The position numbers and the translations under genes are program-made. From a virus: a stretch of DNA of 25,553 nt. Positions 1,627-24,504 of this stretch are shown piece after piece (positions within the stretch are counted from its first letter, which is position 1; the number at the start of each line of letters is the position of its first letter). The notes under the pieces are model-generated. The model did not search any database. It saw only the letters and a list, made by a program, of their open reading frames with translations, and was not told the DNA's origin. Location: positions 1 to 25,553 of IMG/VR virus record IMGVR_UViG_3300025112_000166; one strand, written 5' to 3'.

Positions 1627-2889
1627 CTACCCTACGTAGATGCCGGCCGGTATATCGGCCAAAACTTTTTCAGCATTATCTCCGATTGTTGCATCGACCT
1701 CGGCAAGTTTAGAGTACGTAAGTTCGTCAAATGTTGTCTTAAGCTCTTCTCGCAAAGCATCTTGCTCCGCTTTCGCTTGGGCTAACAATTCAGAAGCATT
1801 CAAGGTGACCGATTCTCCTGGAATAGGAATAGAAGCAAACTTCCCACGTATCTGTCCTAGCATTTCTTTTGCCAAGGCCAGAGCAAAGCGGCGGATCCAC
1901 TGCTTTCCTATGGAATTAATACTATTATAGGCTATATTTTGAAACGGTAACGTATTCATATTATTGACGCCCTTGACTCCTGAAAGCCTATCTCCAGCAG
2001 AATCGTCCCAAGGGTCCGTCTCTACAGTAAATTGAAACCAAAACTTTGCTGGACTGTTAGATCCGGGAGTAGGGTGTATACGAAGCATATTATTCTTTAT
2101 CTCATACGACCAATGAGATACCCTAGTATTTAAGGCATCCTCGTAAGCCATTGATTGAAGTTTGTTCTGCCAAACAGGTACAATATCGAATGTGGAATCG
2201 TCTGCATACTGTCCGTAAGTTCTTAAGTTTCCAACTACACTGAATCCTCCGTAATAACCATAAAAGCGCCACATGGCTTGAGGTGTTTTATAATAAAGTC
2301 TCCGAATTGTAATTCTTTTATTACCGACTTTGCCATAATACGGAACAGTCGAATCGGTTGCCGCTGACTCAGAAATAATAGTCTGTAAATCATAATCTGA
2401 TTGACTATTAACTTTGGTTACAGATCCTGAATAAATATATTCGGTGCCCCCAACATTAGAATCGGTAGCAACGCGTTCTCCAACTCGCCTTATATAGCCG
2501 TAATCATACTTTGGATATCTTAGTTCTATTTTTGAACCCGAAAGAGAGTGGCCGCTTGTAATTTGCCCATCCTGATTAAAGGAGGCAGTAGAGTGACCCA
2601 AAAAGCTTGAGAGCGAATTCTTCGACTGATGCACGTTAACAATGTATGAATATTCCAAGCAGGCCTCTTCATAGGCTGCATATATATTTCCAGCCGTTAA
2701 CTCAATATCTAATATATCACCGCCTAATTTTTTATAAGTGTATGCTACCTGATCAGCTGCGCCGGCGTGAAATGCCGTCGTTTCATAAATGCCAAAAGGG
2801 AGTGCCGCGGCAACATCACCGGACGTTCCCGTGACCGGTAAAATATTAGAATTCGTAGTAGAAGCTGGATTTAATTTTGGAAGAGCCAT
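1627..2889 (-). CDS. gp13: Neck / head completion protein (T4 gp13-like)
   Basis: This 420-residue structural protein directly follows the capsid gene in transcription order. The N-terminus is small-residue rich. The middle is beta- and Tyr-rich ('RRVGERVATDSN', 'YYKTPQAMWRFYGYYGGFSV'). The C-terminal third contains 'IGKQWIRRFALALAKEMLG' followed by 'RGKFASIPIPGESVTLNASE' and a helical tail of Ala, Glu and Leu. A helical 'WIRRFALALAKE' element before 'IPIPG' is typical of head-tail connector/adaptor subunits that dock under the portal. By position it is the gp13 equivalent. It has an ATG start with a GAGGACTAATAA leader and is preceded by a terminator, so transcription may partly restart or read through. 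Connector role is likely; exact gp13 homology is not proven here. Confidence 0.62.
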   Translation of the reverse strand: MALPKLNPASTTNSNILPVTGTSGDVAAALPFGIYETTAFHAGAADQVAYTYKKLGGDILDIELTAGNIYAAYEEACLEYSYIVNVHQSKNSLSSFLGHSTASFNQDGQITSGHSLSGSKIELRYPKYDYGYIRRVGERVATDSNVGGTEYIYSGSVTKVNSQSDYDLQTIISESAATDSTVPYYGKVGNKRITIRRLYYKTPQAMWRFYGYYGGFSVVGNLRTYGQYADDSTFDIVPVWQNKLQSMAYEDALNTRVSHWSYEIKNNMLRIHPTPGSNSPAKFWFQFTVETDPWDDSAGDRLSGVKGVNNMNTLPFQNIAYNSINSIGKQWIRRFALALAKEMLGQIRGKFASIPIPGESVTLNASELLAQAKAEQDALREELKTTFDELTYSKLAEVDATIGDNAEKVLADIPAGIYVG

Positions 2890-2931
2890 TTATTAGTCCT
2901 CAAGGTTAACTAGTGATACTGTTATAAATAG

Positions 2932-2961
2932 AAAGCCCCGCCTCAAAAGAGACGGGGCTTT
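2932..2961 (-). terminator. Rho-independent terminator after the major capsid gene
   Basis: The arms 2932-2940 (AAAGCCCCG) and 2953-2961 (CGGGGCTTT) are perfect 9-base complements. A further CTC/GAG pairing around an AAAA apex lies inside. On the minus strand the stem is followed by TTTCTATTTATAA, a U-rich run. It lies 28 bases after the capsid stop codon (2990-2992) and before the neck gene, where it would isolate a very abundant capsid transcript from the rest of the operon. The plus-strand reading also gives a weaker U-run, but no plus-strand gene leads into it. Confidence 0.85.
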
Positions 2962-2989
2962 AACTATTTTGACCTTACGTCAGTTATAA

Positions 2990-4858
2990 TTAAACTAGAT
3001 CACGAATGACAACTAGTCCATACATATCTGGACGCACCATCTTCTTGGCATATCGGGTCATGACGCCCTTACGGGGTACAAAGTCCTCAACGCCGAAGAT
3101 TGTAGGCGTGGTCTGCAGCGGCACATAGGGAGCGTATACATAACCACTCTCTAGGAAACTACCGCCTCTACGGCCCACCAGCACGAGGCTGCGCGGGAAG
3201 TAGGGATCGACATAAACATCCCATTTCTTAGAAACGGAACCAACCTTAACGGTGCCAATCGTGCCCTTATCACTGTCAGCAGTGACATTGGCGCGGAAGC
3301 CAGCCGTGAACTCAAGGATGTTGGCAACTTCAGGTCCGCAGACGACGAAGTTAGCAGCACCGCGTAGAGTCTTACGGTGGATCTGAGCAGAGACATCATT
3401 GATGGTCTCAATAAGCGTCTCATACCACTCGCTCACGTTACCGGTGAAGTCGGGAGTAGCCGTGGTGGCACCAACCTCCTTACCAGTTTCGCGATCAAGG
3501 AATCGACCTGCAGCACGTGACCAGTAACGAACACCAGCCTTCGAACCGCGAATTAAGTCCTCGATGATCTCGCGATCAATTTCAAGAGCGATCTGCTCAG
3601 ATAGAATCTGAGTAAGCTCGACCTCGGCATCAAGGTTGTGGTAGGCGTTAAGATCCTGTCCTAACTCCGGGGTCCACTTAGCCTTGAGCTTCTTGGTAAC
3701 TGCCGTAACAGCCACACTGTCGACCTTAATATCGATCTCAGGAATGTTTGGACTACCTTCCAGTCCCCATTCACTATCACCCTTTAGAGAGCCTAGACCC
3801 GTACCGACGTCAAAGTCGTCTGTCTCGGGCCACGACCACGTGTTGTTTGCGAGTATACTGCCGGTCATCAACTTCATAGCCGGAAGAGAGTCGCTACCAT
3901 CACGACTAACAAAAGTCATTAGAAGTGATGTTGAAGCACGGTCACCGATCGGACCTCCCTTGGATGCGGAACCAAACTGGGTAAGTCTGCGAACGAGACG
4001 GACACCAGCGGTGGGCCAGTCGCCACTTCCGGAAGAATTAAGAATACCGGGACCACCTAGAACATTCCCGCCGACGGGGCCCTTACCACCAGAAACCTGG
4101 ATAGCAACAAGATCATCTGCATTTAGAGCAGCACCTTCTGCAGTAAAGAGACTTGCAGAAACCTGACACACAATAACTTGGCTCGAGCCAGAAAGGAAAT
4201 CCGGATCGTATTGAGTAAGTGCTCCTAAAGTGTGGGCACTACTGCCGGCAACAACAGAAACATTACGACTACCAGTCGTGTCTGTTTGACCAGCGGTACC
4301 GGAAGCAATTACAGTAAAGTTGACTCCGGCAAGAGTAGAAGAAGCCGTAGGCGACGCAAAACCATTATTTAGGGCATACGGGCCGGCTTCGGGATTATTA
4401 CCCGTGGCCAAATCCACACCGCCAGTAATCTGTGATCCAACAACGCCACCACCAAAGAGTGACTGGTTAATATCGTTACCTAGACGATACTTCTCATTAG
4501 CAGAAGCACCACCAGAATCGGGTGAATAAAGGAAATCAAGGAAGAAGATCAGGCCAGAAGGCAAGCTCATGGGCTGAACACTTACAAGATCGTTGGCAAT
4601 TAGATTGCCGAATACTCGGCGAACGAGGGGGAACGCGACGGCAGCAAAGCCCTCAACGTCTCCAGCAGCCATGCTGGAGGCCTCACGAAGTAGCTCTCTT
4701 GCTTGGTTTTCAAGCAGCGACGCCATTCCGTTACGAAGATGATCATTATCTAGACCCTCTAGAAGACCAGTCTTTTCCCACTTAGAGATTAGAGCTTCGC
4801 CTTCTCGAGAAAGATCTCGATTAATAATACCTTCGGTTAACTTTTGAACAATAGACAT
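2990..4858 (-). CDS. gp23: Major capsid protein (T4 gp23-like, HK97 fold)
   Basis: This 622-residue protein forms the head shell. The N-terminal ~59 residues are helical and charged, a scaffold-like delta region. A L57-R58-E59|A60 sequence matches the T4 prohead protease rule (L/I-x-E|A). Immediately after comes 'FPLVRRVFGNLIANDLVSVQ' (about 76-95), which closely parallels the T4 gp23 'VRRaipnLIAfDicgVQPM' segment. Residues about 115-290 form a Gly/Ser/Ala-rich insertion, making it longer than T4 gp23 (521). The C-terminal half has classic features such as 'AKWTPELGQDLNAYHNLDAE' and 'EIDREIIEDLI'. A very strong AGGAGG SD at 4869-4875 and a downstream terminator fit high expression. Base composition is more GC-rich than the replication genes. 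Confidence 0.93.
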   Translation of the reverse strand: MSIVQKLTEGIINRDLSREGEALISKWEKTGLLEGLDNDHLRNGMASLLENQARELLREASSMAAGDVEGFAAVAFPLVRRVFGNLIANDLVSVQPMSLPSGLIFFLDFLYSPDSGGASANEKYRLGNDINQSLFGGGVVGSQITGGVDLATGNNPEAGPYALNNGFASPTASSTLAGVNFTVIASGTAGQTDTTGSRNVSVVAGSSAHTLGALTQYDPDFLSGSSQVIVCQVSASLFTAEGAALNADDLVAIQVSGGKGPVGGNVLGGPGILNSSGSGDWPTAGVRLVRRLTQFGSASKGGPIGDRASTSLLMTFVSRDGSDSLPAMKLMTGSILANNTWSWPETDDFDVGTGLGSLKGDSEWGLEGSPNIPEIDIKVDSVAVTAVTKKLKAKWTPELGQDLNAYHNLDAEVELTQILSEQIALEIDREIIEDLIRGSKAGVRYWSRAAGRFLDRETGKEVGATTATPDFTGNVSEWYETLIETINDVSAQIHRKTLRGAANFVVCGPEVANILEFTAGFRANVTADSDKGTIGTVKVGSVSKKWDVYVDPYFPRSLVLVGRRGGSFLESGYVYAPYVPLQTTPTIFGVEDFVPRKGVMTRYAKKMVRPDMYGLVVIRDLV

Positions 4859-4881
4859 TTTTTATATTACCTCCTAAAATT

Positions 4882-5952
4882 TTATTGTTTTAAACCTGCC
4901 AAACGTAACATTCGATCCATATTTGGATCAACAGTAGTAGAAGCATTTCTACCTCTATTTGAGTCTATACTAGAACCTAAAAGCATAGAAGTGGTTGGTT
5001 TACTAACAGCTTCGCGAAGTGATTCAATACGGCGAGTCGTGTGACCGCCCACTGCGCCTTGAAGTGATTCAAACAACATCTTCGTTTCTTCTACCGAACT
5101 GGCGTTACGAACAGCTTCGACAATTTTCTCTTTTTGTCGCTCATTCAAGGAGGTGCTATTCAAAGCCTTATTTTGATAAAGAAGTTTGGCGTTTTCTAAT
5201 ATCAAGATATTTAATTGATCCTTTGCTTCTCCAAGCAAGGACCTTAAACCGCCGACCTCGTTTTGCAAGTCAACAATTTGTGATTCATAAAGTTTTAGAT
5301 AATTTTCTTTTTCATCGGTTACCTCATCCGATTGGGCCTCAGCGGCCGCGTTTTCAGCAGCGGCTTCTTCAGCTTGCTCCTTGGACTTCGGCCAGATAGA
5401 TCCCTGCAGCCGAGAGGCAACGTCCACCGTCAACTCTTCCGCTATGGCATCGATAAGCTCATCAGAGATCTCAACATCTTCTTCTAGTGGCGCAGCCTCC
5501 GGAGCTTCCGGGACTTCCGCTCCTGGCTCGCCACCTAGGGGGGGAGCTTCTTCTTCCCCGCCAAAAATTTCTTCGGCCGTCTCCTCGGAACTCATTAGTT
5601 CTGAGGCATCGGGTCCTAGACCCTCTTCCTCTTCGGCATGGAGCCGAGCCTTCAAATCGTCAAAATCAATCTCGATCATCTCTTCATCCTCGGGGCCTTC
5701 GATGTCGGGATTTTCATGAGCCAACGGCACATCATCAGCAAAAGAGGCGTCTTGAGCGGGAGGTACATCTTCTCCTAAGCCCATGCCTAGATCCTGTTCT
5801 AAGCCCATATCTAGATCCTGTTCTAGAAGAGTGCCGAGAGCGTTTTTAACTTCCCCCGAATACTTCTCTAATACGGCATTCTCGGCGTTTTTTAGCGCGG
5901 CCTCTTTTAGGGCTGCGGCGTCGACGATAGCCTGTTCTAACAATGAAGACAT
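4882..5952 (-). CDS. gp22: Prohead scaffolding protein (T4 gp22-like)
   Basis: This 356-residue, strongly acidic protein is encoded immediately upstream of the capsid gene. Residues 1-40 are an Ala-rich helix. About 40-180 is Glu/Asp/Pro-rich low-complexity sequence, including a short duplicated 'EQDLxMGL' unit. About 220-275 is a predicted coiled coil ('YLKLYESQIVDLQNEVGGLR'). The C-terminus ends 'DRMLRLAGLKQ', resembling the conserved '...LAG' tail of T4-type scaffold proteins that contacts capsid subunits. Scaffold guides prohead assembly, then is cut to peptides and leaves. Several L/I-x-E sites are present. The start is ATG with a GGGAG SD. Identification rests on composition, position and C-terminal motif. 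Confidence 0.8.
   Translation of the reverse strand: MSSLLEQAIVDAAALKEAALKNAENAVLEKYSGEVKNALGTLLEQDLDMGLEQDLGMGLGEDVPPAQDASFADDVPLAHENPDIEGPEDEEMIEIDFDDLKARLHAEEEEGLGPDASELMSSEETAEEIFGGEEEAPPLGGEPGAEVPEAPEAAPLEEDVEISDELIDAIAEELTVDVASRLQGSIWPKSKEQAEEAAAENAAAEAQSDEVTDEKENYLKLYESQIVDLQNEVGGLRSLLGEAKDQLNILILENAKLLYQNKALNSTSLNERQKEKIVEAVRNASSVEETKMLFESLQGAVGGHTTRRIESLREAVSKPTTSMLLGSSIDSNRGRNASTTVDPNMDRMLRLAGLKQ
5775..5822. repeat. 24-base tandem duplication in scaffold gene
   Basis: Two adjacent 24-base units (5775-5798 and 5799-5822) differ at only two positions. They encode EQDLDMGL and EQDLGMGL, so the reading frame is kept. This is a small in-frame slippage event in the acidic linker of the scaffold. 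Confidence 0.85.
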
Positions 5953-7027: not shown

Positions 7028-8647
7028 TTATTCCTCGACACCTAGTTCAACATAAGTGGTGCTGGGATTAAAATAAATTACATTTGCCACATCGGTTGCA
7101 TAACCAACGACCCTCACATAAGCGTTCCCGCCCCCGTTTTCGTGTTTGCCTGTATCGGGGAGACCGCTGGTCATAAAGGATTTGTGCGCAAAACTAGAAC
7201 TACAAACATATACGGGGCCCCCTTTTACAAATGACTCAGAGAACCACGTATGAGCATCAAAATAGCCACGAACTAACATTCCATTCGAATTAGGGTTGCT
7301 ACCAATAGAAATTGCAAGAAGTTGAGTATGACCGCTTCCTGTAGCAGTCGCGGACGCCGAGGTCCATGTGCCAGCGGTATTCAGATAATATAAGCCACCC
7401 GCTTCCAGAGTGGTGGTGGCTGTGCCTAAATATAAGACCTCTCCGCCGCCCGTATCATTAGAAAGGTTTATTGGATTTCCGGCGCCGGTATGATGTACAC
7501 TGAATGAAACTTTAGGCGCCGTAGTGTTAACACCGACTTTAGCAGAACCAGCAGTCGTCGCTCCGCCGACGGCGGTGGGGCCCACCAGGGTGGTTGTATC
7601 GCCACTAAATACAGCATTCCCAGCGATAGTCAAACCAGCCGCGCCAGAAAAGGCGCCTGCTGCTGTAATGCTGCCATTTGCTGTCACCAAATTTTGACCG
7701 CTGACGGCGCCGGCACCAGAGACAGTGGTTCCAACAATTATAGAGCCCCCAATAATGCCGTTCCCAGAACCAGATATGGCGCCGGCAGCGCTAATGCTAC
7801 CATTGCGTAACGTCAAACCAGCAGAAGCAGATATGGTGCCATCAGATTTAATCGTCCCGCCGCCATTTCCATCGCCATAGCCATTTGCAATATGCAAGTT
7901 TTGTCCAACTATATCACCAGATGCGCTTATGTCAAGTGAAGCGGTAATGGAACCAGAGGCCTTGATTGCAGAAGCGCGCGACGAGAACAAGGTTTCCCCA
8001 CCAAAAGTGGATCCCAGACCGGCACCATAATCACCACTAGAGGAAAAATAGGCGCCGGCCACCCTATTAGCACCTGAAACGGCCGTGCCAGCAACCACGG
8101 TTGTGTTCACCGCCAAATTTTTCCCTTCGATAAGTTGGGAGGCAGAAACGTTATTACCTGCTATCACATTCGCCGCACCGGAAATAACTCCCGTATTGGT
8201 GATGGAACCGTGTGCCAATGTTATACTTTGGCCCAATATTGGGCCGGATGCACTTATAGCCACAGAAGCAGTGATTGACCCCGAGGCCTTGATTGCAGAA
8301 GCGGGCGCTGAAAACAAGGTTTCGCCGCCGAAAGTTGAGCCCAAACCAGCACCATAGTCGCCGCTAGAGGAGAAATAGGCGGCTGCCACCCTATTGGCAC
8401 CTGAAATAGCTGTGCCGGCAACCACAGTTGTATTTACTGCCAAATTTTTCCCTTCGATAAGCTGGGAGGCAGAAACATTATTGCCTGCTATCACATTCGC
8501 CGCGCCAGAAACAACTCCTGTATTGCTGATCTTGCCGTGCGCCAATGTTATGTCTTGGCCTAATATTGGGCCAGAGCCAGTAATACTTCCATCTGCCTCT
8601 ATGCTACCTGATGCCTCAAAAGATCCAGTTTGAAATTTATAAGCCAT
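7028..8647 (-). CDS. Repeat-built fibre-like structural protein (downstream copy)
   Basis: The 539-residue protein begins MAYKFQTGSFEASGSIEADG. For about 330 residues it is made of short repeats of the type 'I..G..S..G.ISG' rich in Gly, Ala and Ser, the pattern of a beta-helical or triple-stranded fibre shaft. Two copies of the 'YFSSSGDYGAGLGST' cassette sit about 109 residues apart. The last ~170 residues are a distinct globular domain containing 'EAGGLYYLNTAGTWTSAS' and 'SNGMLVRGYFDAHTW', seen (from memory) at the end of many marine phage structural proteins. It lies 20 bases after the larger paralogue, with which it shares long DNA stretches. It has an ATG start. Probably a trimeric fibre or head/tail appendage; receptor unknown. 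Confidence 0.65.
   Translation of the reverse strand: MAYKFQTGSFEASGSIEADGSITGSGPILGQDITLAHGKISNTGVVSGAANVIAGNNVSASQLIEGKNLAVNTTVVAGTAISGANRVAAAYFSSSGDYGAGLGSTFGGETLFSAPASAIKASGSITASVAISASGPILGQSITLAHGSITNTGVISGAANVIAGNNVSASQLIEGKNLAVNTTVVAGTAVSGANRVAGAYFSSSGDYGAGLGSTFGGETLFSSRASAIKASGSITASLDISASGDIVGQNLHIANGYGDGNGGGTIKSDGTISASAGLTLRNGSISAAGAISGSGNGIIGGSIIVGTTVSGAGAVSGQNLVTANGSITAAGAFSGAAGLTIAGNAVFSGDTTTLVGPTAVGGATTAGSAKVGVNTTAPKVSFSVHHTGAGNPINLSNDTGGGEVLYLGTATTTLEAGGLYYLNTAGTWTSASATATGSGHTQLLAISIGSNPNSNGMLVRGYFDAHTWFSESFVKGGPVYVCSSSFAHKSFMTSGLPDTGKHENGGGNAYVRVVGYATDVANVIYFNPSTTYVELGVEE
7983..8378. repeat. Direct repeats in downstream fibre gene (two cassette copies)
   Basis: A roughly 70-base unit encoding YFSSSGDYGAGLGSTFGGE starts near 7983 and again near 8310, a spacing of 327 bases (109 codons). 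The intervening sequence is also repeated further on (around 8385-8570), so the whole is a tandem duplication with scattered substitutions. The same unit occurs three times in the neighbouring fibre gene. Confidence 0.8.
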
Positions 8648-8667
8648 TTAGTTTTCTATCCTTTTCA

Positions 8668-10503
8668 TTAGAATACCATCCAGCTCGTGCCACTAGTAAT
8701 TAGTTGCACAGATGCTCCCGGTGTTGTTAAATATATCTCTCCGGCGCCATCAATATTATCGCCCGGATAGTACGGTGTAATAATTTTTACATTATGATTC
8801 ATATGGTAAGGGGTGAATTTACCAACAGCGGCTCTCTTGATAAAGAAACAACTCCCCGACCTAATATCTTCTGCACCAGTTCCCAACCTTGGTAGTTCCA
8901 AGGTTATAACGCCGCCGCCAGAGCAATTAATGTACATATCGCCATGCTCAGGCTTCAAAAACCCAACTTGGGCGGCGTTTATTGTCCCAGTGGGCTTTAC
9001 ATTATATTGGAAAGTGGCGCCGAGGATCTGGCCGTACTCGTTGATAATTTCGTTATTGTTGATTGTCAGCGATTGTCCAACTAGGGAGCCGGCTCCTGAA
9101 ACATTAACTAACGAAACTATATTACTTCCAGTGATTGACCCCGAAGCTTTGATTGCAGAGAATGGCGCTGAAAATAATGTTTCACCGCCGAAAGTGGAGC
9201 CCAAGCCAGCGCCATAATCACCACTAGAGGAGAAATAGGCGCCTGCCACCCTATTGGCACCCGAAATAGCAGTGCCAGCAACCACAGTTGTATTCACTGC
9301 CAAGTTTCTACCGAGTACACCAATAGAAGCAGAAACATCATTACCTGCTATTACATTAGCAGCGCCAGAAACAATTCCTGTCGCACTAATAGAGCCATGG
9401 CCAACTACTAGATTTTGACCGCTGATTGTGCCGGCACCAGAGAGCGTGCTTCCAGCTACAATACTGGCAGCGCCAGAAACAATTCCCGTATTGGTGATGG
9501 AACCGTGTGCCAATGTTATACTTTGGCCCAATATTGGACCGGATGCACTTATGGCCACAGAAGCGGTAATAGAGCCAGAGGCTTTGATTGCAGAAGCGGG
9601 CGCTGAAAATAATGTTTCGCCGCCGAAAGTGGATCCCAGGCCAGCACCATAATCACCACTAGAGGAGAAATAGGCGGCTGCCGCCCTATTAGCACCTGAA
9701 ATAGCCGTGCCGGCAACCACAGTTGTACTTACTGCTAGATTTTGACCGCTGATTGCGCCAGCACCAGAGAGCGTGCTTCCAGCTACAATACTGGCAGCGC
9801 CAGAAACAATTCCTGTCGCACTAATAGAGCCATGGCCAACTACTAGATTTTGACCGCTGATTGCGCCAGCACCAGAGAGCGTGCTTCCAGCTACAATACT
9901 GGCAGCACCAGAAATAATTCCCGTATTGTTGATGGAGCCATGTGCCAATGTTATACTTTGGCCCAATATTGGACCGGATGCACTTATGGCCACAGAAGCA
10001 GTAATGGAGCCAGAGGCCTTGATTGCAGAAGCGGGCGCTGAAAATAATGTTTCGCCGCCAATAGTAGAGCCCAGGCCGGCGCCATAGTCGCCACTAGAAG
10101 AGAAATAGCCGGCCCCAATTTTGGCAGCACCAGAAATAGACGGTGTCGTCCCCACCACGGGGCCAGCGCCTATTGATATTGTTCCAGTAAACTGATGGAG
10201 ATCGTCCGCGGTATCCCCAAACTTTGAAGCGCCGCTTGAAGAAAATACAGTAACGTGTTTGTGAGATAAAGTGGTAACATACATCCCATGGGCAAATATT
10301 GACCCAGAAACATCTAGAGTGCCTGTAAGTTTTAGTGTATGGTGGTCGGTAACGGTCGCAGATCCGGTAGGATCCCCAGAAGACGTCAAAAAGACAAGAC
10401 GGTTGCTACCGGTAAAATAATTATCGTCTTCTAGATACTGTAAAGATCCAGTTGGACCACTCCCTGTGGAAAGGTGAGCGCCTACGTATGCCCAGCCACC
10501 CAT
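8668..10503 (-). CDS. Repeat-built fibre-like structural protein (upstream copy)
   Basis: The 611-residue protein has a unique N-terminus with 'GSLQYLEDDNYFTGSNRLVF' and 'KHVTVFSSSGASKFGDTADD', the latter common in large marine phage fibre proteins. Next comes a shaft of about 340 residues of Gly/Ala/Ser-rich repeats with three YFSSSGDYGAG cassettes spaced exactly 145 codons. The C-terminal ~110 residues are non-repetitive ('KPEHGDMYINCSGGGVITLE' ... 'GTSWMVF') and probably form a terminal knob. The ATG start has an AGGGG SD, six bases after the stop of the small upstream structural gene. Shared cassettes with the next gene point to gene duplication or recombination. It may be a fibre or a head decoration; the position among head genes leaves this open. 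Confidence 0.65.
   Translation of the reverse strand: MGGWAYVGAHLSTGSGPTGSLQYLEDDNYFTGSNRLVFLTSSGDPTGSATVTDHHTLKLTGTLDVSGSIFAHGMYVTTLSHKHVTVFSSSGASKFGDTADDLHQFTGTISIGAGPVVGTTPSISGAAKIGAGYFSSSGDYGAGLGSTIGGETLFSAPASAIKASGSITASVAISASGPILGQSITLAHGSINNTGIISGAASIVAGSTLSGAGAISGQNLVVGHGSISATGIVSGAASIVAGSTLSGAGAISGQNLAVSTTVVAGTAISGANRAAAAYFSSSGDYGAGLGSTFGGETLFSAPASAIKASGSITASVAISASGPILGQSITLAHGSITNTGIVSGAASIVAGSTLSGAGTISGQNLVVGHGSISATGIVSGAANVIAGNDVSASIGVLGRNLAVNTTVVAGTAISGANRVAGAYFSSSGDYGAGLGSTFGGETLFSAPFSAIKASGSITGSNIVSLVNVSGAGSLVGQSLTINNNEIINEYGQILGATFQYNVKPTGTINAAQVGFLKPEHGDMYINCSGGGVITLELPRLGTGAEDIRSGSCFFIKRAAVGKFTPYHMNHNVKIITPYYPGDNIDGAGEIYLTTPGASVQLITSGTSWMVF
9170..10108. repeat. 435-base tandem repeat in upstream fibre gene
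   Basis: The cassette encoding YFSSSGDYGAGLGST begins near 9170, 9605 and 10040, giving two exact 435-base steps (145 codons, in frame). Substitutions are scattered and mostly conservative. Within it, a 108-base (36-codon) sub-unit beginning TAGATTTTGACC starts near 9736 and again near 9844, with another copy near 9409, exactly 435 bases before 9844. Confidence 0.85.
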
Positions 10504-10509
10504 AGTTCG

Positions 10510-10968
10510 TTAAACCCCTACGCTGCCGGTCCAGTTCGTATAGCTAGCGCTTACAGGGTCTGGCGATATACTAGGATTGTTGATCGCCCCTTGATTAATA
10601 AATGTTAGGCCAGCCACAACAATAGCATGGTTAGAACCGCTTATCCACACCTCTGTTAATTTTAGATCAAGTGGGCCTACTTGGCCGGGGCCCGTGGTGG
10701 TACCAGAGGCGGGGCACAAAAAATACCCTGTATTATTATGAAGCTCGGCTTCGAGCGAAGCAGAAGAAAATCCCACACGCAGTTCCGAAGCGCCTTCGTT
10801 CTGAATCATAACCCACTTGGTTACATTAGGAAATTGTATTTTAACAGGGCCGCCTACATTTCCACAGTTTACAGCACCCGTAACGAACGGTTTTCCTGAA
10901 ACTTGATAAGACCCTACATTTTGTAATCCAGCTCTGTATTGATAAGTTGGGTTCGATGGGTGTGTCAT
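10510..10968 (-). CDS. Small virion-type structural protein
   Basis: This is a 152-residue beta-rich protein. It opens MTHPSNPTYQYRAGLQNVG and soon has 'SYQVSGKPFVTGAVNCG', a segment I associate with small structural proteins of marine tailed phages. The middle ('FPNVTKWVMIQNEGASELRV') predicts a jelly-roll or beta-sandwich, and the C-terminal part is Ser/Asn/Pro-rich. No catalytic motif or signal peptide is visible. An SD (GGAG) precedes the ATG. It heads the fibre block, directly after bS21, and is followed within six bases by the large fibre gene. A head-decoration or fibre-base role is plausible but unproven. Confidence 0.5.
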   Translation of the reverse strand: MTHPSNPTYQYRAGLQNVGSYQVSGKPFVTGAVNCGNVGGPVKIQFPNVTKWVMIQNEGASELRVGFSSASLEAELHNNTGYFLCPASGTTTGPGQVGPLDLKLTEVWISGSNHAIVVAGLTFINQGAINNPSISPDPVSASYTNWTGSVGV

Positions 10969-11010: not shown

Positions 11011-11226
11011 CTAATTCCTTTTATTGCTTTTTCTTTCAAGGCGTTCGCGCTCTCGGATAGCCTTTCTTCGTTTTATTTTTCTTTTAACAGATGGCTTTAT
11101 ATAGTGTGAGCATCTTTCACGATAACTTTCTAAGACTCGCTCCTTTTTAACTTTTTTTATAAAGCGTCTGATCAGCCTATCTGAATTTTCACGTGGGCGC
11201 GCGCAAACACTAACATTAATAGCCAC
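11011..11226 (-). CDS. rpsU: Phage-encoded 30S ribosomal protein bS21
   Basis: The 71-residue, very basic protein matches bacterial bS21. It has the 'RENSDRLIRRFIKKVKKERV' segment (the family has RENEPFDVALRRFKR..EKAGVL), then 'SYRERCSHYIKPSVKRK' (family: R.REFYEKPs.kRK) and a C-terminal Lys/Arg helix. bS21 sits on the 30S platform near the anti-SD end of 16S rRNA and helps initiation. The start is GTG (11224-11226) with an AGGA SD overlapping the stop codon of the upstream gene. An eight- to ten-residue N-terminal lead (MAINVSVCAR) precedes the conserved core. It is embedded in the late head operon, so it is probably made together with virion proteins. Phage bS21 genes are known from marine and large phages. 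Confidence 0.9.
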   Translation of the reverse strand: MAINVSVCARPRENSDRLIRRFIKKVKKERVLESYRERCSHYIKPSVKRKIKRRKAIRERERLERKSNKRN

Positions 11227-19702: not shown

Positions 19703-20248
19703 TTAAGGATAGGCGCCGATAGTAGCCGGGAGGGCGGTGGCCTTCATTATAAGATCACTGGTGACCCCTCCCCAATACACGTTAACCGTTTGGCCAGCAC
19801 CGCCGGCCGCAAAACCTAAATAAAAAGTGTACTCCTCGTCGGGCGTGAGACCCGTGAGCGTCCAGTATATGGTTAGAAGGGAGTAGTCGTTGAGTGTAGT
19901 GGTAAATAAAACAACAATCTGAGTATCCGATAAGGCTCCAATAGGCGTATAAGTGGCCCAAGTAGAGCCGTCATCTGACAATGCGAACTGGGCCGAGTCG
20001 TTCGAGCCGGGGAGGCAGGTGAGGGTTGCAGCTATCTCCACGTTTCCCGAGGGAGATGCTCTAAAAGTTACCGAGTGTTTGTTTGACTTTCCGTCTTCAA
20101 CATAGGCTACCGTCGCCGTTGTGGTGGTGTCGGTGATAAGGGTAGCAGCGCCATAGCGACTATATCCTACAATTGCGCCGGCGCCGTTGAAATATTTTCG
20201 AAGAAAACTCAGTAAGCGATTTCTAGATTTTAGCTCGGGGAAACTCAC
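19703..20248 (-). CDS. Beta-rich Thr/Ala/Gly protein, probable structural or adhesion protein
   Basis: The 181-residue protein starts with GTG (20246-20248), overlapping the previous stop as GTGA. A short basic start ('RNRLLSFLRKYF') precedes a Thr/Ser/Ala/Gly-rich domain with alternating hydrophobic strands ('SVTFRASPSGNVEIAATLTC', 'YTFYLGFAAGGAGQTVNVYW'), the texture of an Ig-like or fibronectin-type beta-sandwich. No signal peptide or enzyme motif is seen. It is GC-richer than the lysis genes beside it. It may be a virion surface or baseplate protein displaced from other structural genes. Not recognised. Confidence 0.5.
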   Translation of the reverse strand: MSFPELKSRNRLLSFLRKYFNGAGAIVGYSRYGAATLITDTTTTATVAYVEDGKSNKHSVTFRASPSGNVEIAATLTCLPGSNDSAQFALSDDGSTWATYTPIGALSDTQIVVLFTTTLNDYSLLTIYWTLTGLTPDEEYTFYLGFAAGGAGQTVNVYWGGVTSDLIMKATALPATIGAYP

Positions 20249-21348: not shown

Positions 21349-24300
21349 TTACACCTGGACGTTTGCATAGTTCCCTCGTTTCTCGATTATAATTTGGGTA
21401 TCAACACAATCTTTCAAACTCTCAAGATGAGAAATTAAAACAACTGTCTTGAAATACGATTTAATTATTTCAAGTATCCGGATAAATCCTTCCATATTTT
21501 CTGCATCGAGAGCCGTCCCGGGCTCATCAAGAATAAATATGTCTCCCTTTGGCAAGCTAGAAACCGACAATAGCGCTAGACGAATAGCCATTGCGGCGAT
21601 TGTTTTTTCTGCGCCAGATCCCAACTCTAGGGGCCGAGGTTCATGTTTGGGGTGCTTAATGAATATATTCAATCGCTTTCCATCGTCCTCAAAAAACACC
21701 TCAAATGAAACAATATTTGCCAATACCTTTGCCACCTCTTCATTAATAACAGGAAGCTGTTTCTTAATAATGTCATAGGCAATCCCATTAGAGTGCATAC
21801 AACGAAGATACAAATCATAAGCTGCATATTCTTGCTGAATATTTTGATGGTCTCGTTTTTGAGTTTTAATATTTTCTAGTTTTTGTTCCATCGATCCGTT
21901 AGCTTTGTAAAGCTCTAAGATTTCATTATTACACCGTTCCCACTGTTTTTGCATTGAGTCTGTTTCTTTTTGAGCAGCTGTCTTTCGTTTTACTAAGTGC
22001 TCAAAATTTTCGATGGATTCTTCGTTTTCTTCATATATGACAATATCGCTTTCCAGAGTATATAATTCATTTTGCAATGATAATATGGACGTCTTAGACC
22101 TTTCATGTTGCAGTTGCGTATCTTTTAACAGAGACACCATATTAGAGTATTCATTCATCGCGTCGTTGTACTTTGCTATATGGAGCGTAGTTCTTTTTGG
22201 ATCAAGTGTTATAATATATTCTTTTGTGCTCTTCGCAATTTCTAATTTGGATAATACTTTTGTTCGAAGAGGGGTTACTTCGTCTTTAACTGCATGTGCA
22301 TCTTTGATAAACTTACATTTGGGAAACTTATCCCCACACGGAACCTCATCCAAGAGCCGTAGTTTTTTACTTTTACTATTATAATCTTTTTGCAGAAGTT
22401 TCGCCGCAGTGGTCAAATCAGAAAGCTCTCTGCTTTTTATATCGATTTCGTTCTGTTTTTCGTTAAGCTCATCAATATCAAATTTTTCAATTACAGAAGA
22501 AAGGCGCTTCACGTTTTTATTAATTTCTTTTATTTTCTTAGCGTGCGCTACATTATTGTTCTTTTCAGTCTCGATCTTTTCTAATAATTGTTCTTTCTTT
22601 TGACGTATGCCCAAAATATCAATAATTTCACTTGGAATCGATTCTATCGACTCATTAATCTCGACCAATTGGGCCTCTTTGGCGGCCAGTTCTTCTTTTA
22701 TCTCTTCGCACAATATCTTCTGGTCTCCTAAAGAAGCTCGATTAAGGCCGATATCTCTCTTTGCGTCGACTATTTCTTCATCAAAATTTCGATCTCCGAC
22801 GCGTCGTATAAGGGCCTTAAGATCTGAGCTATCTTCCTTTGCATACTTAAATTTCCTTTCGAACACCTCTAGATCTAAAAACTTAGCCAGAATCTCTTTA
22901 CGACGAGTAGAGCCTTCTTTAATAAACTGCAGCGAATCTAGCTGCGAAGCCATCGATGTTAGCAAAAAGTCCTCAACGGTGCCAAACTTTTTTCTAATGT
23001 TGGCGTCGGTTTGTAATCTGCTCGTGCCATTAAAACTTGTAGTTTCATCTATAACAGGGTCATATACACTAAATTCTAAATCTGTTTTCGCCTCTAGGGT
23101 TTCTTCTCCCTTAAGGCGCTTTGTGTACTTCTGAGATGTCCTTTCAATAGAATAAACTTTAGAACCAATACGCAATTCAGCGGCGCCTCTGCATTCTTCT
23201 TTGTTCTGATTTATTATATTAAGATTTTTTCGTTCGTTCTTGGATGTGGTATTAAATATTGTATACAGCAGCCCATCAATAATGCTAGACTTTCCAGAAT
23301 AGTTTTTACCAAAAATGCCAACAATGCCATTAACATTTTCAAAATTAATTTTATTATTAGAGCCGTAATTAAACAAATTATCCCACTCAAATGATTTAAG
23401 CTTCCAATTAATATTCCTAGCTACGTCTTCGCTATCTTCGGCCGCTTTATTATACTTTTGATTTAAATCAAAAACCCTCTGTAGCATATCTTCAGAGGCC
23501 TCAAAACCTTCCAAATATTCTTTTATAAGTCTTTCTTGTACTGAAATGTCACGCAAATTTTCTTTCAGAAATTTGTTGCCATTTAAATCAACACTGCCGC
23601 GCTCGCCTGCAGCGCGATTCAAAAATGTAATTGATTCAGGGTGAAATCTATGGCGCGCGATATCGACGGCGCGCTTCATAACATTTAAAGGAAGATTATT
23701 ATTACTTACTAGTCGTAAACGCGCGTTTTTGGGCACTGCGGCGCCCTTGGGCATTCGCCCCTTTGTGGTCAATTCAATGGTAATAAAGGGCTTCGGATTA
23801 GAAAGTAAAACATGTCGAACATTAAAAACGTCCTTGTTCTCAATTTCCCAAATTAAAAAACCTTTATCATTGGTCTCGCCGTGATTCTGCTGCACGATTG
23901 AGCCGCTATAGCGAACGCGGCCGGCCGGGTCCAAAATTTGATTAGTCTTGTGAATATCCCCCAACATAGCATAATCAAAACCTTCAAAAATAGAGACATC
24001 GTGATCTCCATGATCCATTACCCAGCCAACATCCGTTTGCACTCCCACGACCGATCCATGATAAAACGCAATATTTATTTTATCTAAATCGGTTGGCTTT
24101 ACCCAATTATCTTCATCGAAGACGCTCAATACATTAAAGCAGAGATCGGCATTAACGTGAACCTCTCCGGCATCCTTTAATAGGTGCAAATTATTGTGAT
24201 TTAATGCTTCAACAATAGGAGTAATGGCATCTTGCCTCGATGAATTACGTAAATTTCCATCATGGTTGCCCAAAATAACATAGGTTGGAGCTATCTCCGC

Positions 24301-24504
24301 CAAACTATTAAGGAAATTAGAACACATATCTACAAATTCTGGCGATATTTGTGTCTTTGTATGGGCGATATCTCCGCCAATATAGATGTAATCGACTTTT
24401 TCAGAACGCAAAGCCTCATACATCTGTTCGAAGACCTTCTTATATTCCCAGTGATATTTTAAATTTTTAATGTGCACATCGGCACAATGCGCGATTTTAT
24501 ACAT
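21349..24504 (-). CDS. Fused SbcD-SbcC (Mre11-Rad50) recombination nuclease (T4 gp47 + gp46 in one chain)
   Basis: The 1051-residue protein has two enzyme parts. Residues 1-~245 are the Mre11/SbcD phosphoesterase: D9/H11 (ADVH), D45 (GGDI), N80/H81 (GNHD), H149 (FYHGS) and 'GDIH' at 182-185. From ~365 on it is Rad50/SbcC: Walker A 'GKNYSGKSS' (399-407), long coiled coils on both sides of a C723-x6-C730 hook ('PCGDKFPKCKFI'), signature 'LELGSGAEKTIAAMA', Walker B 'FILDEPGTALD' (990-1000) and a His switch (H1026). T4 encodes gp46 and gp47 separately. The role is processing DNA ends for recombination-dependent replication and host DNA degradation. Its stop is about 46 bases before the holin. Confidence 0.9.
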   Translation of the reverse strand: MYKIAHCADVHIKNLKYHWEYKKVFEQMYEALRSEKVDYIYIGGDIAHTKTQISPEFVDMCSNFLNSLAEIAPTYVILGNHDGNLRNSSRQDAITPIVEALNHNNLHLLKDAGEVHVNADLCFNVLSVFDEDNWVKPTDLDKINIAFYHGSVVGVQTDVGWVMDHGDHDVSIFEGFDYAMLGDIHKTNQILDPAGRVRYSGSIVQQNHGETNDKGFLIWEIENKDVFNVRHVLLSNPKPFITIELTTKGRMPKGAAVPKNARLRLVSNNNLPLNVMKRAVDIARHRFHPESITFLNRAAGERGSVDLNGNKFLKENLRDISVQERLIKEYLEGFEASEDMLQRVFDLNQKYNKAAEDSEDVARNINWKLKSFEWDNLFNYGSNNKINFENVNGIVGIFGKNYSGKSSIIDGLLYTIFNTTSKNERKNLNIINQNKEECRGAAELRIGSKVYSIERTSQKYTKRLKGEETLEAKTDLEFSVYDPVIDETTSFNGTSRLQTDANIRKKFGTVEDFLLTSMASQLDSLQFIKEGSTRRKEILAKFLDLEVFERKFKYAKEDSSDLKALIRRVGDRNFDEEIVDAKRDIGLNRASLGDQKILCEEIKEELAAKEAQLVEINESIESIPSEIIDILGIRQKKEQLLEKIETEKNNNVAHAKKIKEINKNVKRLSSVIEKFDIDELNEKQNEIDIKSRELSDLTTAAKLLQKDYNSKSKKLRLLDEVPCGDKFPKCKFIKDAHAVKDEVTPLRTKVLSKLEIAKSTKEYIITLDPKRTTLHIAKYNDAMNEYSNMVSLLKDTQLQHERSKTSILSLQNELYTLESDIVIYEENEESIENFEHLVKRKTAAQKETDSMQKQWERCNNEILELYKANGSMEQKLENIKTQKRDHQNIQQEYAAYDLYLRCMHSNGIAYDIIKKQLPVINEEVAKVLANIVSFEVFFEDDGKRLNIFIKHPKHEPRPLELGSGAEKTIAAMAIRLALLSVSSLPKGDIFILDEPGTALDAENMEGFIRILEIIKSYFKTVVLISHLESLKDCVDTQIIIEKRGNYANVQV

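Follow-up and report, generated by a model that had tools for sequence, protein, structure and literature searches.

One repeated shaft common to two adjacent fibre genes with different ends in a genome fragment of an uncultured T4-like phage

In T4-like phages, conserved motifs at the distal long tail fibre locus (gp37/gp38) were described as sites of homologous recombination through which the adhesin modules of fibre genes are exchanged (Tetart et al. 1998, cited in PMC3797505 and PMC6027323). Marine phage metaviromic islands encode fibres whose N-termini are fixed, whose C-termini vary and whose repeat shafts are fibre-specific (Mizuno et al. 2014, PMC3909814), and the host recognition cluster of pelagimyophages is a hypervariable multi-fibre island in the structural region of these T4-like marine phages (PMC7029224). 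Collagen-like repeats occur in fibres of phages and virophages and have been called recombination hotspots; a virophage mutant with a wider host range was found to have lost whole repeats in frame (81 nt within 27-nt repeats) (PMC7242381). In T4, fibritin is attached to the neck protein gp13, and fibres are carried by the neck (PMC12270204, PMC3797505).

The DNA analysed here in its whole length of 25,553 bases, hereafter the window, is IMG/VR virus record IMGVR_UViG_3300025112_000166 and is a genome fragment of an uncultured T4-like phage. It contains a minus-strand T4-like block that encodes a primase, a fused gp47/gp46-like nuclease, terminase, portal, protease, scaffold, a gp23-type capsid protein and a gp13-type neck protein. 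According to the terminase and the capsid protein, the nearest cultured phages are Flavobacterium phage immuto and Microcystis phage Mel-JY01, with less than 50% identity, and the order of terminase, protease, capsid and neck genes is kept in both of them. Two fibre genes, B and A, were located between the protease region and the scaffold gene (Table 1). Just upstream of the fibre interval lies a 71-aa gene with a GTG start (11011-11226, minus strand) that is homologous to ribosomal protein bS21 (PF01165, E=1.1e-9); an S21 gene is annotated at a similar position in Mel-JY01. The nuclease of the block (21349-24504, minus strand) appears to unite gp47 (metallophosphoesterase) and gp46 (SbcC-like) in a single fused protein of 1051 aa.

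Exactly five copies of the YFSSSGDYGAGLGST cassette were found, all on the minus strand, two of them in gene A and three in gene B, and the two genes are separated by 20 bp. The copies are spaced 327 nt apart in gene A and 435 and 435 nt apart in gene B. Exact matching and TRF therefore confirmed what had been reported in the initial annotation, namely two adjacent fibre genes with common cassettes at these spacings and a 108-base sub-repeat, and a second repeat search returned the same repeat families as TRF. Because 435 equals 327 plus 108, the unit of gene B corresponds to that of gene A extended by a single block of 36 residues. The fifteen residues of the cassette were identical in all five copies, and the DNA between copies was approximately 70-95% identical. 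The annotation had also stated that all periods were multiples of three. This is true of the spacings within each gene, but not of the distance from B3 to A1, which spans the gene boundary and equals 860 nt. Moreover, all 93 repeat offsets measured in the fibre shafts of the phage group were multiples of three, and such spacing is uninformative since it is expected of any repeat within an open frame, where other lengths would break the frame.

Table 1. Positions in the window of the fibre genes, their repeats and the neighbouring genes.
Feature	Position	Strand	Basis
Homologue of gp13 (neck protein)	1627-2889		phmmer E=1.9e-7 vs PDB 9mkb
Scaffold-like gene, bounding the fibre interval at its other side	4882..5952	-	
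Fibre gene A (539 aa) with an anchor of type N1 (MAYKFQTG...), a hexad shaft of two units and a tip of type C4	7028..8647	-	ORF; anchor and tip classes common to relatives
Tip domain of gene A (type C4), conserved on genes whose N-termini differ	7028..7450	-	Alignments; blastp
Repeat array of gene A, period 327 nt, 1.9 copies	7938..8572	-	TRF
Cassette copy A2	8006..8050	-	
Cassette copy A1 (YFSSSGDYGAGLGST)	8333..8377	-	
Fibre gene B (611 aa) with an anchor of type N2 (GWAYVG...GPTGS), a hexad shaft of three units and a tip of type C1	8668..10503	-	ORF; both ends conserved among relatives
C1-type C-terminal domain of gene B, commonest in the group	8668..8985	-	
Repeat array of gene B, period 435 nt, 2.2 copies	9146..10113	-	TRF
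Cassette copy B3	9193..9237	-	
A-type segment within the third unit of gene B, approximate limits	9291..9360	-	Codons -41 to -18 before cassette B3
Cassette copy B2	9628..9672	-	
Sub-repeat, period 108 nt (36 aa, six hexads)	9731..9948	-	TRF; hexad period
Cassette copy B1	10063..10107	-	
Conserved 152-aa gene, in most relatives directly upstream of the fibre interval	10510..10968	-	

Outside the YFSSSG block, a strict six-residue hydrophobic rhythm was observed in the shaft. The best hydrophobic period was 6.00 in A and 6.05 in B, with a power of 18.6 and 34.6, respectively, against shuffle maxima of 9.7 and 12.8. This period suggests a beta-helix built of hexads. Because the AlphaFold models of the fibres were poor (mean pLDDT 45 and 48), the proposed beta-helix was derived from the periodicity and from weak matches to left-handed beta-helix enzymes (E 0.3 and above). 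The low-pLDDT model of fibre B resembled T4 gp9/gp10-type chains with a Foldseek probability of 0.99-1.0, but with E values of 0.008-0.2. A search for named fibre families gave only weak PHROG matches and no PDB sequence match for either fibre of the window, the hits of the PDB sequence searches being chance matches. The fibre of relative L003, which has the same tip class as gene B (C1), matched phrog_972, tail fiber proximal subunit, with E=1.6e-7. Several candidate matches were discarded: those of the fibre A model in Foldseek, which were insignificant and included several capsid decoration proteins; those of the fibre B model to giant-virus proteins in BFVD, which were attributed to noise from the repeat fold in view of the poor model; and a Pfam PF06598 match on the L003 fibre, which covers a short generic repeat and was rejected as homology. 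The products of genes A and B are presumably virion fibres that bind hosts, possibly as trimeric beta-helices, and the length of their shafts may matter.

The relationships among the repeat units were then compared along their length. Runs of shared polymorphic sites were significant by permutation for B2-B3 (p=0.0002) and B1-B2 (p=0.002). The plain longest-run test was not significant for B1-B2 (p=0.09); this test is too weak for that pair, and comparisons of site patterns and of dS were added. The third unit of gene B was found to be a mosaic: it is like unit 2 upstream (codons -56 to -42), then A-like for about 24 codons, and then of B type again. Sites at which B3 agrees with A1 and A2 against B2 fell inside the A-type segment in 16 of 17 cases (Fisher p=1.2e-4). 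Between B2 and B3, codons -56 to -42 contained no synonymous difference (dS 0), while the adjoining block had a dS of 2.4. Similarly, dS between B1 and B2 was 0.42 in the core versus 0.10 at codons 66-105. Over 63 codons, A1 and B2, which belong to different genes, had no amino-acid differences, whereas A1 and A2 of the same gene had 16. These patterns support in-frame exchange of segments between copies, both inside one gene and from one gene to the other, as had been suggested in the initial annotation; the support concerns past events. Most of this exchange appears to be old, and some blocks appear to be younger. The long independent divergence that the annotation had taken to speak against its reading was present in the cassette cores (dS up to >1), but not in some blocks (dS 0 to 0.1). 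Considering that dN in the cassette cores was 0-0.06 and dS was 0.3-1.6, it could be concluded that the protein sequence of the cassette is conserved by purifying selection and not diversified.

Relatives of the window phage were gathered from IMG/VR by a capsid search (80 loci) and a protease search (21 loci). Their fibre interval, which extends from the conserved upstream gene to the scaffold gene, contained from none to several fibre genes. The anchors and tips of these genes fall into few families, which are reassorted across the relatives. Within the group, 15 genes have the N2 anchor and 18 have the N1 anchor, so the N-termini are conserved between phages. Three tips (C1, C3 and C4) were found on genes with anchor N1 and three (C1, C2 and C5) on genes with anchor N2; the commonest tip, C1, occurred with anchors N1, N2, N4, N5 and N8. 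In these terms, genes B and A of the window are of types N2-C1 and N1-C4, respectively. The shafts between these conserved ends were mostly private to a genome. For example, L003, the capsid protein of which is 75% identical to that of the window, has a different repeat, which is common to its own fibre genes.

The sharing of shaft DNA between fibre genes of one genome was found to recur in related phages. With the window left out, it was detected in 7 of 75 gene pairs from the same genome versus 29 of 2070 pairs from different genomes (odds ratio 7.2, permutation p=0.0002), and it occurred in 7 of the 18 other genomes with two or more shafts. Mosaic units and segments common to different genes, as are typical of a recombination-shuffled fibre locus, were thus present in the window and in its relatives. 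The clearest sign that modules move was provided by L083 and L084. Their flanks are 89-92% identical and the fibre ends are kept, and a 321-nt shaft module (90.7% identical) is placed approximately 1.7 kb apart within a fibre gene that encodes 1430 aa in L083 and 1521 aa in L084. No homologue of the window cassette was found when IMG/VR and 84,980 genomes were scanned with the fibre proteins or with the cassette alone; no strain-level relative of the window fibres was present in these collections, and phage sequences searched with the fibres by blastn and tblastn returned nothing. When strain variants were sought with the L085 and L084 fibres, the yield was limited to distant contigs or to one or two that were near-identical.

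Other variable regions were observed in the group. A second variable position is located upstream of the terminase genes (19703-20248 in the window; L083:2144-2902; L085:664-2013; L102:1752-2153), where the same C4-type tip domain is carried by differing proteins in the relatives; that of L102 is a 133-aa protein with little beyond the tip domain. Large genes of unknown function (~700-1050 aa) lie between the protease gene and the next conserved gene in L083 (10606-13752), L085 (10598-13108) and L088 (10608-12701), and genes of this type are absent from the window.

Most relatives have, after the gp13-type gene, a small gene (1116-1622 in the window). It gave only weak family matches (head protein, head closure), and it is labelled a neck protein because of its position beside gp13. 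In L003, L097 and L098, the fibre interval contains a fibre gene of 968 residues (L003:710-3616; L097:12999-15905; L098:7605-10511), the N-terminal domain of which is formed by the small gene (72% identity, 162 aa). The gp13 region is covered in L003, and the small gene is missing from its usual place there. The fibre interval of L024 contains one free and one fused copy (2550-3065 and 3078-5009), with none at the usual place. This fusion of a neck gene to a fibre gene is a direct clue to the position of a fibre on the virion, and the fibres of the fused sub-lineage (L003 type) may be placed at the neck. The argument applies to the fused lineage; no such evidence was found for anchors N1 and N2 of the window.

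The fibres of the window are probably a product of modular T4-like fibre evolution, in which repeated shafts were duplicated and recombined in frame and the ends differ. In each fibre protein, a repetitive shaft of six-residue period, which is probably beta-structured, lies between an N-terminal anchor and a C-terminal domain, both of which are conserved. The shaft DNA would have grown by tandem in-frame duplication of 36-, 109- and 145-residue blocks, and homologous recombination between the copies, within a gene and across both genes, would next have produced the mosaic units. Selection would hold the amino-acid sequence of the shaft while synonymous sites diverge. Across the group, the same process together with exchange of ends would have given each lineage its own shaft and its own set of fibres at the locus. 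The most likely agent would be the general homologous recombination of the phage acting on repeats born by tandem duplication, and the fused gp47/gp46-like (SbcCD) recombination protein encoded by the window phage was counted in favour of recombination. If B3 and A1 crossed over, 860 nt would be lost and the anchor of B would be joined to the tip of A in a single frame of 871 residues; events of this kind would explain the reassorted ends in the group.

It was also considered that A and B might be simple paralogues that arose by whole-gene duplication, had their ends replaced later and inherited their shaft similarity without any subsequent exchange. The adjacency of the genes and the correspondence of the A unit to the B unit minus 36 residues agree with this. 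However, the relationships among the units conflict, since the third unit of gene B changes from B-like to A-like and back, A1 equals B2 in protein sequence over 63 codons and differs from A2, and the ages of the blocks are uneven; such an origin is therefore quite improbable. An assembly artefact, in which short-read assembly duplicated or joined repeat copies, could be suspected because some metagenome contigs of the group, e.g., L087, end within fibre repeats. Nevertheless, the longest exact repeat at the fibre locus is 70 nt, which is below the usual read length and makes mis-assembly unlikely; in addition, the copies differ throughout, the frame is kept in every unit, and both genes have complete conserved ends. 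The probability of an artefact is accordingly very small.

The initial annotation had regarded the repeats as a built-in device for length or antigen variation, that is, as repeats kept for frequent recombination that alters shaft length or swaps pieces between genes, during infection or within the population. Exchange between copies did occur, the B3-A1 crossover described above would yield an in-frame fibre, and length and module position have changed in relatives, all of which would agree with a device. On the other hand, diversifying change in the exposed repeat, which marks a phase or antigen variation system, was not found; the many synonymous and almost absent amino-acid differences in the cassette cores indicate neither fast turnover nor diversification, and they contradict antigen variation. 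Moreover, no special recombination site or dedicated enzyme was seen at the locus in a non-exhaustive search, and the in-frame spacing, which was universal among the repeat offsets of the group, is a residue of selection expected in any coding repeat. A dedicated device is therefore unlikely. As an extension of modular evolution by ordinary recombination, it may be speculated, with considerable doubt, that the shafts of this large marine T4-like group serve as common, genome-private homology tracts, which would keep neighbouring genes similar in their middles so that anchors and tips reassort by ordinary recombination. The fibre set would then be self-renewing, with at least some fibres mounted on the neck via the fused neck protein.

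The relative ages of the segments show how uncultured T4-like phages may build shafts, namely, by in-frame duplication and by exchange with a neighbouring gene, the protein being held while the ends reassort. As far as the T4-like gp37/gp38 locus is described in the papers cited above, the two systems are alike in that the function of the ends is retained as the variable part changes. Unlike at that locus, the exchanged repeat DNA of the window is the shaft, it is common to two adjacent genes, the locus lies among head genes, and no gp38-type adhesin was identified. The fibres of Mizuno et al. belong to T7-like pelagiphage, whereas in the window two genes of a single genome have a repeat in common, and the course of the exchange was traced. 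The pelagimyophage island is likewise multi-fibre, but it is located between VrlC and the gp14 neck gene and not between protease and scaffold genes. Collagen-like repeats have another repeat chemistry and their loss was seen in culture. The presence of a gp13 homologue is a likeness to the fibritin system of T4; in contrast to T4, the product of the gp13-adjoining gene is itself fused to a fibre shaft in L003-type relatives. Recombination of fibre modules is thus already known, and the window contributes a clear case of one shaft that is common to two genes with different ends.
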